Of a stretch of 64,000 nt of DNA, positions 39,618-48,600 are shown one piece after another. The first letter of the stretch is position 1. Each line of letters starts with the position of its first letter. Location: contig FN649734.1 in NCBI GenBank assembly GCA_000310025.1, positions 2,309,291 through 2,373,290 on the forward strand, written 5' to 3'. The DNA is from Ectocarpus siliculosus. Taxonomy: Eukaryota; Sar; Phaeophyceae; Ectocarpales; Ectocarpaceae. The translations under genes were made by a program, and so were the position numbers. The notes under the pieces are model-generated. The model made no database searches and had not been told where the DNA came from. It saw nothing but the letters and a program-made list of their open reading frames with translations.

Positions 39618-42600
39618 ATGTCCTCGCGCTTGGCCCTGCTGGAGAGGTTCGTAGAAGATGAGTGCATTCCGGCTGAGCCCGTATTCACGCAGGAGATGGC
39701 AGAAATCGAGGCGAGGACGGGAACTCGGTGGGAGGAAGTCCCGGCGGTGTTGTCGAGACTCAAGGCAAAGGCTCGATCTCTCGGCTTGTGGAACCTCTTC
39801 ATGCCCAAGGTATGCTTGGTGTGAACAACCATCTGGTGGGCCATCCATTGACAAAGCTGCTTCCCTGGCAGGGATCGCCGTGCGAGATTTGCCCCGATTA
39901 TCCCGCTACAGGTGGCAGCATGAAGCTGCAGAGGCAGTCAGACGGCTTTTACTGACCTCTTCATCATGCAGTCACAGACTTGGCAGGCATTGATAGCATA
40001 CCTCGTTGGCTGCAGCAGTAAATATTGAATACAGTAGGGGGACCTGTTTAGTGCCGGTACATGTCCAGAGATTTCACCGGCACTAAACCGGGCACCCGGC
40101 ACTATTGCGAATAGTGCCAAAACGGCACTATTGAGGGCTGGCCAATCCCTCATTAGTGCCGGTCTGGCACTAATGAGGTTTTGTTCGACTTATATGGTGT
40201 AGCGCCCACGCTTGCAGGGTCAACAGAGTACGAAATGGATCGACACGACTGTTGAGTGAAGTCCCAGCGTCGGCGTGGGCAGACATTTCTTTCCTGCGAC
40301 ACGTGTGGTTCGAACCTGTGGAGCCCACAAGAGTTTGTTGTAAAATAAGATACAGTAGTTTCGGTCTAGAGCCTAACCAGGACTAGTCGACGGCGAAAGA
40401 AGACACGTCATGTACTCGAGTAAGCTGTGACGGCACAAACTGCTTGTATAGCTCTCGTTCGTACAAAATATCACTGCTCGCTGCCTACTTCGATGTTGCA
40501 GAATGAGAATGAAGAACTATAAAAAAAAAGCGTGCCAAAGACAACAAAAAAAAAACTGCAACTACAGCTGTAACCCCCGCCCTCACTACGTCAGGACAAA
40601 TTATCTCCTGTCTGCCTGGCGCACCCGCTTCGATGTTGCAAGAAAAAGCAAAAAAAAACAATAAAAACGAGAAGCACGACAGGCAGCGCACCGCAACAAA
40701 TCAAACAACCATCACTACCACAGCTGTACCCCCCGCCCTTACTCCGTAGCAACAACAAACTCTCTCATGTCTGCCTGGCGCACCCGCTAGGCGGAATGCG
40801 CTACAATCATCGCCATCTTCGCTTTCGCTAGGTAGAGCGCCGCGTCTCCGTTGCCACTCTCCTCTGCTGCCGCTTCCAGGACGCCGAAGTGAGACGACAG
40901 TTCACCATAAGCCGGTGGGGCACGGCGCGCGAGCCCCGTGTTCTCATCGCCACTGTCCTCCTCCTGTTCGTCCTCCTCCTTGCGGCCGGTAGACACGCGA
41001 GTCCCAGCCAGCTGTGCCGTCATGTCGTCCACCGCATACTGTCTGAGAACCTCAACCACTTCATCGTCGTCCTCGATGGTAGCCCACCCCTGAATCGCGC
41101 TCACCGCTTCCTCCACGAGCGGCTTTCCGGGTTCGATGTCGAGTTCTGCCATCAGTTCGGCGATGTCCTCGTCCTCGATTCGAAATCCCTTCTGCTGCGC
41201 CTCGCGCACGCTCGTGCTCAAGGTGTTGAGAGTCTCCGTGAGAGCGTTCAAGTCAGGCTGGGTGACCTGGAACCGGGTCTTTCCGTGTTTCTTGGTGAGC
41301 TCGGCCGCCATCTCCTCCGGAAGAGTCTTGGCTTTAATTTAACCCCCTTACCACGCACAGAAAATTCGGCGGTCTTGCGAATTTCTGAAATGTAAGAAAA
41401 AGAGCGAACGACGCCTGCTGATTCGATGGTGCAGACAGTTCCATCCCTGGGTGCAAGTGCAAACCTGCCTTCCCACTTGAGCCGTCTCTTGTCTATAATC
41501 CTTATCAATTGTCCCCTTGATACTAGGGGACACGAGGGGACAATTGATAGGGATTATAGACAGCAACTGGCGGGAGCGTGGTAAACGGGGCACGAAAAGG
41601 AGGTTTTCAAGATATTTCTCTAGAGGGAAAGCGAGACCTTCTAACTCAAGCCCTAGGTTGCTCGGTGCGTCCTATCAACGGTGGGCTAGGTACTTCTTCC
41701 GCGCTTGCCCCTAATAGCGCTTTCCACCCAAGGGTACACAGACGCGGCGCAACTTCGCTGTTGAACCGGCGGCGTAATCGCCCCGCGATTCGACCTGTTC
41801 ATTACCCTCATACTCCTCCACTCTACAAAGCATCCATACTAGACTAGAGTCGTCCCTGTGTACCCTGGCACCCCCCTGGTCGAGTAGTGCAAAGGAGGAG
41901 ACAATCATGCCAATCTTCGCGAGGTAAAGCAGGTGAAGAAGATGGGGACAAAAAGTGTCCCCAAAAGGCGATCCAGCCCTAAAGGGGTTAACAAAGCACC
42001 TTGTCCCAGGTAGCGCAGAAAATGTCGTGCATACGTTTTTGGGTGGACAAGCGGATGTTAAACGAACCCAGTGACGATCAATGACTCATCGGCATGCGAG
42101 CGAGGACCTCTTTTTAGCGAAGAAACAATGGAGATGCCCGGATGTTGGAATAATCTGTCGAAAACAATATACTGTAATCTATCCGTACAACCTTACCCAC
42201 GTTACCAAACCAAAGCTATGTGCACCAATGCGCGAGTTGGACGTTTTACATTATAAACAGCGATAGCACATGTTCAAACCTCACCTGGCGATGTCCTGGG
42301 CGGTGACGCTGGCCCATGCTTTCTGGAGAAGTTCAGCGGCATCCCGCACGTGAGGTTGGTGCCCTTGCACCAGCCCCATTGTCCAGGCCTTCATTTTGCG
42401 AGCTTTGGCCTGGGCACGAAGGGTGTCAGCCACCAACATGGTTGATGCCTTCACATCGAGCAGCTCCTTCCTGTAGTTGCACTTCTTCTTGGCGATGATC
42501 CCCATATCCATGGGCTGGTGTACGGAGGTGCACAGCGGAGGGTAGAACTTGATGGTTCTTGCCCCCGATCATCCACTAGATCACCGTGAGAAGAACAGTC

Positions 42601-45600
42601 GTCCATCAGAAGCAGCACAGGTTCGGTAGTGAAGCGCCGAACGAACGGGAGGAAGACTTCACACCACCACTTGCGGAACGTCGCGGTGTCGGACCACGCG
42701 TTGGCCTGCGAGAAGTACTTGAGAGGTGAAGCCGTGTTCTTGAAGCAGCGGGGTTCCTTTGCCTTCCCTATGATGGCCATGTCAACCTTTGCAGTGCCGT
42801 CGGCATTGGCGCACATGAAGGCAAACAGTCGATCCTTGAAGAACCATGACCCTCCTTGTTTTCGCTATCATCATTCTGATCCTCATTTTGACAAGAATCT
42901 CTGGGCAGTTCTTCCCTAGCCCTACGTTTTTTGTTTTGGGGAAGGTCATCCGGCTCAAACCCTTTGCTCTCTTCCACTCCTCCATGTTTTCCTCCTCCAT
43001 CGTCGTCTTCGCCCTCCTTTCTTCCCTTTCCCTTTCCTTCGTCTCCGTCACTCCTAAAATAAGTACCCTCATTACTACCGTTGTCGCAGAGATCCCAACC
43101 GATTGGCCCTGGTGGAAATTGGTCGATCAGTAGCCCATGACGTTTGAACACATCGCGAGTTCGCATGGACAGAAAACGAGCTAGCTCGAAGGTAAACCGT
43201 CTCCGAATCCTGTTAGTATGAAAAGCTTTCAGGCGAACTAAGGCTCTTTCGTCGTCAAAATTCCCCCGGCAAAAAGCTTCGTGCGCCAAGTGGTTGGCGA
43301 TGGCAACGATGAGTCGATTTGTGCCTTTGCCAAGACCACCATTCGTTGAAAAAGCAGAGTAAGGAGGGTAGATCTAGACGGGTTGAAAGTTCCCGCATAG
43401 TGATTTGCCTTACTTGCAGCTCGATCTTCGAGGGCGGATCCTGGCTTTTGGACCGACTTGTGGATGCTTCGACCTGCGGATGGGTTGACGATTGTTACGT
43501 CTATAAGAATGGACTTGGTGCAGAGTTCCTCTTCCTTCTCTCCTGCGTGTAGTCCTGGGGGGATTACCAAATCCATCTTGTATAGGCCCTTTCCCTTACC
43601 CGTGCCTGTGGTAAAAGGGGAAGAATCGTCAACGGCGATGGGCATATGGCACTCGCGCAGTGTCTTGAGGACTACTCGAACCATCATGTTATGGAGGAAG
43701 GTTGAGGCGCCGGTCTTGGTGCAGACGAGGGAGTGGGCTCGGCTCAAGCGGTCCTTGCATGGTAACAATGCACCTGCACCACAAAGTTTGCCTGTGTCGC
43801 AGTCTGCTCGATCGTGACTCCCCAGTACACGACCGATTGACTCCCGATATAGATCAGGCATCATTCTTTCATCTGCTGACAAAACTCCCTTGCCTTTCGC
43901 TTCCTCCAAGCGGATCAATGCTCTCTTCTTTGACGTTTCCTCGCCTGCTACCTTCTGCAAGTCTGTCTCCACCATATGACGCACTGCTGCATGAAAAGGT
44001 TTCGAAAGGAGAGCTTGGGCTCCAAAGACTTGGTAGTGTTGACCAAATTCATTTCGGCTGTAGGTATACGGTGGTTGATGTTCCACGTCAGGGTTTCCAT
44101 CTTCACTGGGTTTTCCCGCCTTCCCTGCTTCCAACAGGTAAACTCCTTTGAGGGCGGGGGTTAAATCATCACTTGTGGCAAGTTTAGCCCATGACTGCCC
44201 AAAAGTGTTTTCAAGCTTGGCTTTGGTGATGATCTCCTCTAGCTTCTTGAGCGAGTCAATCAGAGCCAATCCTGTCGGTAGCTGGGCAAGCCGGGGCAGA
44301 CATTGCTCAACTGTGTATCCTGTCGATGCTTGCACTGACTTGGAGAACACCAGTGCTTGCCCTGCCACAAAAGCCGATTCTCGAATGAGAACATTGCTCG
44401 TGATCCCTAGTCCTCCTTCACGCATGGGTAGGTGCACCTGTGCCCGAGCTGTCCCTTTGAAGAAATCTACCTCCTCGCTCTTCGTCGGGTCTGCCCGTAC
44501 TTCTTTGTCCGTTGGTATTCTCATGCTGTCGGCCATCTTGCCGAGGACGATCTTACTCATTGCCCACATCATCATGTTGTCATGTTTTCTTGCGGCAGAG
44601 ATAGTGATAGACGGTGCAATCGTCCTCAGCAGATGGAACAAACGTGGCACACCAGATAAACGCAGCAGTTGATAGCTGGCTTGAGGGTCGTCAAGCGTTA
44701 CTCCGCCGGGTCACCACGGGTGAATTCGGAAACGAAATTCCTCTGCGGAGTATCAATTCCGCCGGGTCACCACGGGTGAATTCGGAAACGAAATTCCTCT
44801 GGAACTCTTCTGTCCCTATAATAGTGGGATTCCGACTACTGGCATGCCACCTTCAGTAACTGACAGACCAATTTTCGTCAATTGTTGCTGTTCATCGTTT
44901 GTCAAAGAGGGCATGCAAAGACCTTCCGGGAAAAGCACTTTGGATTTCGGGAGACTGAGCTCAATCCCTTTTTGGGAGACACGTTCCTGAATCCAATTCG
45001 TTACAGTGGATATGGCCTGCATGTTCCTAGCCAAACCTGATGGAAGATGCGCTTGGAGGTCGTCGACGTATCCGATGAGTTTGACTCCTGGCACTGGTGG
45101 CTTGTTGTTGAACTCTTTCATGATATCAAGGAGTCCTACACAGAAGCCGAACCCTCCCAAATTACAGCCTTGTTGAACTCCGCGCTGTGAAAGAACAACC
45201 TCGATCGAACCATCTTCCATTTTGAACAGAAGTTTCGCCTTGGTTCGAGCGTAGATGTTCCCGAAGTACTTCACCAAGTGTGGCGTATGAGTGGCCACTG
45301 CTGGCAAGATTGAAGATCTGCGCATGCTGTTGTAAGCATTTTTCCCATCAAAGGAGAGAATGGTGCTGCCTTGGTGGGGGCTGAGGGCTGCTGTGGAAGC
45401 CACTATCTCAACTCCTCCTGGAACACCACCTCAGAACTGGTTTGCTGCCTCGAAGTGTGTGTGTGTGTTCGCGCGCGCGGGGTAACCGGGACTATTGGGG
45501 GTGGCAGCGGCGCCGAACCGGCACTATACATGGCAAGCTCTCAATGGTGCCAGACCGGCACTTTTGAGAGCACCACCTGTGTCCAGAGATTTTACCGGCG

Positions 45601-48600
45601 CTATATCGGGCACCTGGCACTAATCAACCGGCACTAAGCAGGTCCCCCTACTGTATTGACGTACAGCAGTAGAGAGGAACGTAGGTTGTTTGGATAAATA
45701 ATAAAGAAGCTCCGTGTGACCCCGGCTGGTATGTCAAAACACATACACCGAAAGGTGTGTAGCGCCAGAAAGATGGGACGAACAACACGCCCGACTGCAG
45801 TCAACACTTGACGTCATCGTCTTGTATGCAGCGGCTCACATCTCACACCAACGTATAGGTCATAAGCGCCCTCGTGACTACCAAGGCTATGTCCCAGCGC
45901 TGCAAGTAGCTTGGTTGCCTCTTGGGGGCGAAATGTGCGCGTTTACTGTAGTGGCACACATTCTGTGATCCAATGCCGAAAACTACCGGTTTTGTGCGAT
46001 CGTTCGATACATGGCAATTTGAAGTACAGTAGTCCTGCGACGAAACTCATGCATATCCACCTACATCCGATGCGAAGCGTTTTGCGTGCACGTTGTTGTC
46101 CTTCAGGGGCACGAAGGGAGCGCGAATGTGCCGATGCAGGAATACGCACAAATGAGCGAGGTGAGGTTTGGCGGCGGCTTCAATCAGCTGCGATGGGCCG
46201 ACCTGTTCGTCGACCTGCCCCGCTTGATACCTGTAGGCCAATCTGGCACCTCCAGAAGTACGTTGACGAACAGTAGCTCGCGACCAACCAGGCTGATGTG
46301 CAACTCTCCTGTACACTACAATATGCACAGAGGACCGTGCAGTGTTGTAAAATGCGATAGTGACACAAGCTGTTCTAGTCACAGAGAGCAAATGCAGCAC
46401 CTGCGCTCTTGCCGTTATTTCAGTACAGGAGACAGACGTGTCTTGCTGATAGTTCCGTGGTATGTCGAGTTTATCCTGACCTTCCCCCGACTACGTTGGC
46501 CGACTTGCCCCTGCCTCTAATCCAGCTGATGGGACGCTCGTCTATCGCTCCTGAGGCGTGCAACTGCTCCGCACCCGACACCGGCAACATGGAGGTATAT
46601 ATGCCGCGGAGAATGTTGACAGCGACGCTGAGCATGCTATCGAAACTGGAGACTTATACCCCTATTGATGCTTCCGCGCGCTTCCGCAATGAGCGTTAGG
46701 CCCCACCAACTGGTGTCCTCCGAGGAACCACGATCCCGATCCGCGGCCGCCGGCGGGGGGGTTTCGGCCATGATTGCACGACCTAACACACGCAACGGTT
46801 ACGCACCGCTCTTCTCCCCGCCCGACCTGAAGGTGTTCGCCAACTATGGCAGTCCCGAGCACAAGGCGACCTGGCTGACACCACTGCTTGAAGGTGCGTG
46901 CACAGCCCATGGCCCGCGTGGTGATGGGTACTCGTGGATATTTATTGCCCGTGCGACACGCTGCAGACGTATCCTTTGTTATCTAAAAAAGTGTGACCTC
47001 TCGCCTGCCCCTGACCTTCCCACTCTCCAGGCAAGATTCGAAGCGCGTTCCTGATGACCGAGCCTGCGGTTGCAAGCTCAGACGCCACCAACATTGCCTG
47101 CGATGTGCACAGAGAGGGTGACATGTACGTGATCAACGGCCGCAAGTGGTGGAGCTCTGGAGCGATGGACCCACGATGCAAGGTGTGTAGCGGTGGAGTG
47201 ATTTCCGTACGGTGTCCAGATGTCACACGCCGGTCATGCTGCTGCAGGGTGGTAGGCACAACCGCTTAGCGAATCCATCGTCTACAACACACCATGCTAC
47301 CGTCGCGGTTATCTTGGGGCACACCTTAAGCACAAGAAACGCGACGAGTTAGCATCGTATTTTCTGCGGACAGACGTTGGGTAGCATCGAGAGGGAACCG
47401 CGCCACACGTATTGAAGTCTTTGGTGGGGGCCTTGGCTCCGTACGCAATATCCTACGTTAGCAGCACCGTGCATCCGGACTTGCCATATTGCCTGATAGT
47501 GTTAATTGTTCTGGTTGCGCAACGGAGTACCGCCAACAGTATGGTACCACATTAAGGGGCATAGGCGGCTGCCTTCGAGGAAGGTGTTTCCCTCCATGTG
47601 CCCTCCCGTTTCCCAAGCCGTTAAAGAAGCTTGCAAAAGCTTACCAAAATAGTACTACAGTAGACTGCATTTGTTGTTTGTGCATACAACGAATGTTCAT
47701 GCATTTCGTGTACCGTTTTCACCACAAGGTTGCTATCGTCATGTGCCGCCACGGGGGCGCTGAGTGGGATGCGAAGGGGTCCCATGGCCGGCACAGCATG
47801 GTGGTGGTTCCGATCGATGCGCCTGGCGTGACGATGGTCCGAGCTCTCAAGGTCTTCGGGTACGACGATGCTCCGCACGGTCATGCCGAAGTCGAGCTCA
47901 GGTGCGGCAGTTGTAGATCCCGAGAGTTTTGCAATCTCTTTTGCGACACCGTATGCATGGTAAGGCCTCACCCGGTGCTCACACCTGCAAGATTTCCAGC
48001 ATTCAGTAAATCCGATTTTGTAAGAACAATTCCAGTGCAGTCTGTGCGCAACAGCACAGCAGGTGCTCCCCGATGGCTATCCCTGCACGTGGCGTTCCGC
48101 CCAACACCTGACTTTGCTGTGCACTTTGTGCCGGTTCACTGTTGGGTGCGCTGGTCTCCAGGCACCCGTACAAAGTTCGACTAGAACCGCAGAGAATATC
48201 ACGAGCGCAGCTTTCGTCCAAGAGTCTGAAATGTGGAGAGAAGGCCTCTCGGCGGTCATACCCAGGAACGCTTTCAATGCATTTGAGCATCTCGTGACAT
48301 TGCGGGCTTGCCGCCCCCCGCGATAGGAATGTTCGTGTCCCACTATCCAGCATCCTGCTGGGCGAAGGGAGGGGCTTCGAGATTGCTCAGGGAAGGCTCG
48401 GGCCCGGAAGGGTGCACCACTGCATGCGTGCGGTGGGGATGGCGGAACGCGCCTTGGCAGCCCATGTTCAGCGCTCTCGGTGAGCTCCAATCGTTTGTAT
48501 CTTGCGCGCAGTGAGGTGGCGTTTTGGTCTTTTGCCAGATGCTTTAGCAGCATGTAGCCAACCGTCGTTCAAGTTTGCCCAGTGTGTGCGTGCTCTCATC

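Follow-up and report, generated by a model that had tools for sequence, protein, structure and literature searches.

The brown alga Ectocarpus siliculosus carries, in a 64,000-nt stretch of its genome (hereafter the window; C9:2309291-2373290 of a 189-Mb assembly in 492 contigs), a Tigger/pogo-like transposon with terminal inverted repeats (TIRs), located at 40032-45653, in which reverse transcriptase (RT) sequence stands in place of the N-terminal half of the transposase (Table 1). We consider it probable, at roughly 0.84, that this is a non-autonomous transposon whose (AC)n tract received a microsatellite-targeting RT element and was then changed by deletion or rearrangement, and that the same tract has been occupied in many other Tigger-type elements, some of which moved as units.

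Results

The window element and its relatives without RT

The element shows the features of Tigger/pogo (Tc1/mariner-like) transposons, namely a DDE_1 domain, TIRs and a TA target-site duplication. A preliminary description of this DNA, made from the sequence alone, had reported 27-bp TIRs with TA on both sides as well as a Tigger-type transposase and an RT on one strand. Both observations hold: 26 of the 27 TIR bases match, and DDE_1 (frame 42451-42864, E 2.1e-17; frame 42281-42568, E 1.5e-7) and RVT_1 (frame 44816-45430, E 6.5e-10, 39.5 bits against a cut-off of 29.6) are all on the minus strand. Allowing up to three mismatches, the TIR pattern gave 89 listings in the genome (47 forward, 42 reverse) and its reversed control none. 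The Tigger right end has 76-94% identity to 39 other scored places (best 40 of 201 candidates), and the first ~950 bp of the Tigger-like left part is 92% identical to locus L030 and 90% to L032. For each DNA query the best 40 candidates were scored, and the copy numbers given here are lower bounds.

The same description had the N-terminal half of the transposase missing exactly where the RT lies, and comparison with Tigger elements free of RT bears this out. In L016, L040 and L041, ~1.5 kb of transposase N-terminal side lies between the points equivalent to 42844 and 45456, with shorter versions of this stretch in L038, L039 and L042. A 325-codon open frame in L040 covers nearly the whole DDE_1 profile (E 6.9e-30); L016 has a DDE_1 match (E 7.9e-29) and a frame with HTH_23 (above cut-off) that adjoins the right end. 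Further N-terminal DNA-binding domains, CENP-B_N in L016 and HTH_Tnp_Tc5 in L040, scored below cut-off. The window copy has no N-terminal helix-turn-helix/CENP-B part, and its remaining transposase sequence presumably includes the second and third catalytic-Asp regions.

The junction between RT and transposase

The RT meets the transposase at 42842/42843 rather than at about 42860-43240, where the junction had been placed. A 29-base pattern over this point, with up to three mismatches, occurs once in the genome, in the window (reversed control, 0). Among the 40 scored matches to 42760-42930 (131 candidates), the window alone is covered on both sides and the other 39 on one. A search for several copies with this junction had been named beforehand as the check for a mobile family; given the single occurrence in 189 Mb, the junction was rejected as the definition of such a family.

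At this junction the RT lacks its 3´ untranslated region (UTR) together with the adjoining (AC)n, and the transposase lacks ~1.5 kb on its N-terminal side; other RT copies run at the equivalent point into a ~250-bp 3´ UTR followed by (AC)n. A precise 1.5-kb deletion of the target as the normal mode of RT entry was likewise rejected, since the 3´ UTR and end of the RT are also gone. Because the window RT lacks them, the loss took place at or after RT insertion. The RT is 5´-truncated too, as copies in L010, L011 and L012 extend nearly 300 bp further 5´ (11 of the 14 matches in that stretch), and its frame breaks at a 44-bp direct duplication. The window copy is thus an ordinary nested insertion that was later damaged. 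The earlier suggestion that an RT inserted and a deletion followed fits it, given a unique junction, Tigger elements without RT and RT copies elsewhere.

RT copies at (AC)n microsatellites

Copies of the RT family end 3´ in AATAATAAAA or a close variant and continue into (AC)n. For copies outside TIR elements, (AC)3 was found within 20 nt of the 3´ end in 22 of 24, compared with 421 of 20,000 random 40-mers from the window (2.1%) and 517 of 12,400 from the fetched loci (4.2%). These free copies come partly from whole-genome match lists and partly, by chance, from loci that had been fetched. The RT probe (1743 candidates) was cut from L015, one of the copies counted, and took in the (AC)n at its end, which slightly favours copies at (AC)n. 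The 24 include a second RT piece in L013 close to a Tigger-borne RT; where it stands relative to the lost end of that element is uncertain. The count excludes L011, L053 (the same locus as L043) and the fragments in L029 and L045. On the other side, (AC)n precedes 12 of the 15 listed RT 5´ ends; among the remaining three, the listed ends in L019 and L046 are alignment starts inside a longer RT. The position in the RT varies from one 5´ end to the next, so the (AC)n found there belongs to the target.

An RT domain and a constant 3´ end with variable 5´ truncation mark the family as one of the retrotransposons without long terminal repeats (non-LTR), the window copy having lost its 3´ end. Judged from these flanks, it is a family that inserts into (AC)n microsatellites. 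The longest RT frame has 490 codons in the window and 446 in the eight loci checked, and no complete RT frame was seen. We also observed RT 3´ ends in tandem (L009:4399-5514, L056 and L058), where the (AC)n end of one copy leads into a second copy or stub, as though every insertion created a fresh target.

Empty and occupied tracts in Tigger elements

For 36 right ends in the fetched loci, we asked what follows: 13 have an empty tract, 22 continue into RT-family sequence and one (L045) does neither. In the empty tracts (L016, L027, L029, L031, L033, L034 and L038-L044), 9-15 bp separate the right end from the transposase side, which begins with the (AC)n tract, as could be read directly in 12 of the 13. 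In 18 loci (L017-L020, L022, L023, L025, L030, L032, L036, L037, L046-L048, L066-L068 and L070) RT sequence separates the right end from the transposase side; in four elements (those of the window, L013 and L035 and the second element of L029) no transposase side is recognised beyond it. All 22 RT inserts are in the transposase sense; the listing covered the strand that carries the right end, so that an opposite insert could hide only in L045. The 36 are chosen matches and not a random sample, with L066-L070 fetched for the occupied junction, and 13 versus 22 is accordingly not an estimate of occupancy. Three further loci do not enter the tally: L026, which coincides with L041, and L028 and L069, in which the fetched stretch does not reach the right end.

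Counted from window position 45455, the RTs begin at eight different 5´ ends: 1 in the window, 937 in L013, 1619 in the main group, 1726 in L025, 1754 in L047, 2178 in L032, 2201 in L046, L048 and L067, and 2268 in L030. The RT of L035 starts at 1624, near the main group, and those of L066, L068 and L070 start within the 3´ UTR. A second RT-end stub is present in the tract of L046 and of L070, and another in the sequence of L047. The junction of transposase side, (AC)n and RT UTR was spanned by 30 of 40 scored places (1359 candidates), with three covering the Tigger side only and seven the RT side only. Spanning here means a match from position 100 or before to 160 or beyond, with the junction near 132; the sequence of 19 of these places was fetched as well, and the other 11 are known as match rows only. 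A pattern of RT end, (AC)n and Tigger was found, with up to three mismatches, at 10 places (reversed control, 0). L066-L070 are diverged Tigger-type elements with RT ends in the same tract.

An amplified sister chimera

Seven loci (L017-L020, L023, L036 and L037) hold whole chimeras of 2025-2138 bp that are 1.0-2.6% apart (gaps ignored); each is bordered by TA at both ends, and the flanks differ. Among 40 scored places (141 candidates), 9 span the junction that this family has between RT and right end. The ~2.1-kb chimera has been amplified as a TIR unit, and a recurrent chimera therefore exists, with a junction other than that of the window. Because it contains only ~1 kb of RT and ~0.2 kb of transposase N-terminal side, this chimera was presumably driven in trans. 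The idea that a chimeric family moves as one, also raised in the preliminary description, thus applies to relatives of the window element and fails for the window junction itself. That account, supported in part, took in neither the nested TTAA-flanked repeat, nor the (GT)7 tract at 45455-45468, nor microsatellite targeting, nor the second junction.

Other features of the window

The window element also contains a nested TTAA-flanked repeat (~650 bp) with 96-97% identity to 16 other places among the matches listed (779 candidates). L016, L026, L027, L028, L040, L041 and L042 lack it, their sequence being continuous across the site, and it looks like a young piggyBac-type miniature inverted-repeat transposable element (MITE). 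A short inner stretch of the repeat also matches in inverted orientation. The nested repeat and, within the RT, the 44-bp duplication are further changes to the window element and may have arisen in any order.

Table 1. Features of the transposon at 40032-45653 (positions in the window)
Feature	Position	Strand	Remark
TA, left half of target-site duplication	40030..40031		
Left TIR, 27 bp	40032..40058	+	26/27 identical to right TIR
Tigger-like left end and 3´-side part	40032..41336	-	86% to L016
Nested TTAA-flanked repeat, MITE-like	41339..41991		Boundaries approximate
Transposase C-terminal part, DDE_1	41988..42844	-	
RT/transposase junction	42842..42843		Unique in genome
RT element (RVT_1)	42843..45454	-	Both ends truncated relative to other copies; coding frame broken
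44-bp direct duplication inside RT	44702..44801		44702-44745 and 44758-44801
(GT)7 on plus strand, (AC)n in RT sense	45455..45468		RT 5´ junction and Tigger target tract
Tigger right end, 5´ side of transposase gene	45456..45653	-	
Right TIR	45627..45653	-	
TA, right half of target-site duplication	45654..45655		

Beyond the element, an open frame at 47462-48184 matches Acyl-CoA_dh_M below the curated cut-off (E 5.1e-5) and is perhaps a host gene exon. Light-harvesting-type genes (PF00504) gave 87 matches in the genome, many of them clustered on contigs C92, C232, C488 and C16, and their best match in the PDB was FCP17 (entry 9ygv, 409 bits), as expected of an alga that bears fucoxanthin; a search for RuBisCO as a marker gave no match.

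Discussion

We propose that a microsatellite-targeting, non-LTR-type retrotransposon inserts into the (AC)n tract just 5´ of the transposase gene, in the transposase sense, and that the host in the window was a CAGTAGGGGG-type Tigger. Insertion would proceed by target-primed reverse transcription at nicked (AC)n tracts, and incomplete reverse transcription would leave the copies 5´-truncated. A later deletion or recombination would then have brought the RT up against the central part of the transposase gene, with loss of the RT 3´ UTR, the downstream (AC)n and the N-terminal half of the transposase. The RT family and its older relatives occupy the same tract in many other Tigger-type elements, and some of these RT-carrying TIR elements went on to move as units, presumably with Tigger transposase supplied in trans.

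How the window junction arose allows other explanations. That its combination of TIRs, RT and transposase is itself a chimeric family moving with this junction appears highly improbable: in its favour are intact TIRs bordered by TA and the amplification of related chimeras that have another junction, but the genome contains the junction pattern at a single place and 39 of 40 scored matches around it are one-sided. Recombination or template switching between two elements, in place of a simple deletion within one, is a more serious alternative, if still an unlikely one. It would suit the few bases of possible homology at the junction and the many related copies that could have served as partners; nothing decisive speaks against it, although both ends of the element look like one subfamily, the closest of the scored right ends having the same TIR type.

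Another question is how often the tract was entered. One old RT insertion in one Tigger, with internal deletions producing all Tigger-borne RTs and no repeated targeting, seems quite unlikely to us, since every deletion would have needed the same (AC)n edge as its stop, second RT-end stubs are present in L046, L070 and L047, and empty tracts exist. The RT tree (32 copies) is star-like, and in it L046 and L048 stand apart as a strongly diverged pair, with the free copy L024 as closest neighbour (support 97). Omitted from this tree, mostly as too short, were L011, L014, L029, L043, L045, L051, L053, L055, L061, L064, L065 and the second L013 piece. For topology tests we used a tree of 31 copies, with L011 added and L046 and L048 removed (L066-L070 are in neither tree). 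The approximately unbiased (AU) test rejected a single clade of all young Tigger-borne RTs (p = 0.0049) and gave p = 0.043 for the main group with L032. Taken together, the trees make two or more insertions likely, and the different RT 5´ ends suggest more than two.

Several observations weigh against the explanation proposed here. The Kishino-Hasegawa (0.127) and Shimodaira-Hasegawa (0.183) tests keep the single clade that the AU test rejects. The AU test itself keeps the main group together with the window (0.66), L030 (0.52) or L013 (0.34), a clade of all but the window (0.21) and L030 with L032 (0.43). A single RT clade (bootstrap 97) unites L025, L047 and the main group, which share a host backbone but differ in their RT 5´ ends; they could stem from one insertion with later changes of the 5´ edge. 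In addition, two of the 24 free copies (L012 and L024) lack (AC)3 at the 3´ end, the listed 5´ end of L014 is not in (AC)n, and ~700 bp of unmatched sequence separates the right end from the RT stub in L066. A signature of target-primed reverse transcription is not visible in the window copy, which has lost the RT 3´ end.

Both microsatellites and transposons are known targets of non-LTR elements, as stated in PMC4640811, which also describes the (TG)n-specific Togen families of fish and some HERO families (R2-group elements encoding a restriction-like endonuclease, RLE) that insert in microsatellites. Two other sources add the microsatellite-inserting DongAg and DongBg (PMC3636483) and name microsatellites and other transposable elements as targets (PMC8869645). 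The present family resembles Togen in its AC/TG dinucleotide target, a comparison by target alone with elements from another host group, and the RLE-encoding groups (HERO, DongAg, DongBg) in its insertion into microsatellites. By eye, a C-terminal DLVIPPG...ILIDVTIV stretch of the RT resembles an RLE core, with no backing from Pfam or PDB: the window RT had no Pfam match to an RLE domain, and PDB sequence searches returned either no matches or two weak, unrelated ones (E 2). A structure model of the RT was too poor to use (mean predicted local distance difference test score 31, predicted template modelling score 0.19).

The Tx1L element of Xenopus is a non-LTR element lodged in the DNA transposon Tx1D, and the cases are alike in that a retrotransposon occupies a fixed place in a TIR transposon. 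They differ in that the target here is a microsatellite borne by the DNA transposon, and since the RT also lies in (AC)n outside TIR elements, it is not confined in the manner of Tx1 to one DNA transposon sequence. With Tigger/pogo the TIR elements described here share the DDE_1 transposase, TIRs and TA duplication; what sets them apart is their (AC)n tract and the RT inserts present in many copies. Microsatellite-targeting and transposon-targeting non-LTR elements are thus already known, and the present case joins the two, the microsatellite riding in a DNA transposon. Among the entries listed in searches of an open-licence library, none treated an (AC)n-targeting RT or such a chimera in algae, which does not prove that there is none.

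A more speculative possibility, which we hold to be rather unlikely, is a lasting partnership or parasitism in which the Tigger carries a portable (AC)n landing pad that the RT family keeps refilling in the transposase sense. If so, the RT could use the Tigger promoter and ride along when the Tigger moves, and RT-bearing TIR chimeras would arise repeatedly, some becoming successful non-autonomous families. The part worth keeping, beyond the window copy, is the wider nesting in one tract together with the amplified sister chimera. A microsatellite-targeting RT, a DNA transposon that bears the microsatellite and a nested product that is mobilised again would make a simple route by which class I and class II elements merge. 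One algal genome contains empty tracts, occupied tracts and an amplified product, which allows the steps of this route to be ordered and dated.

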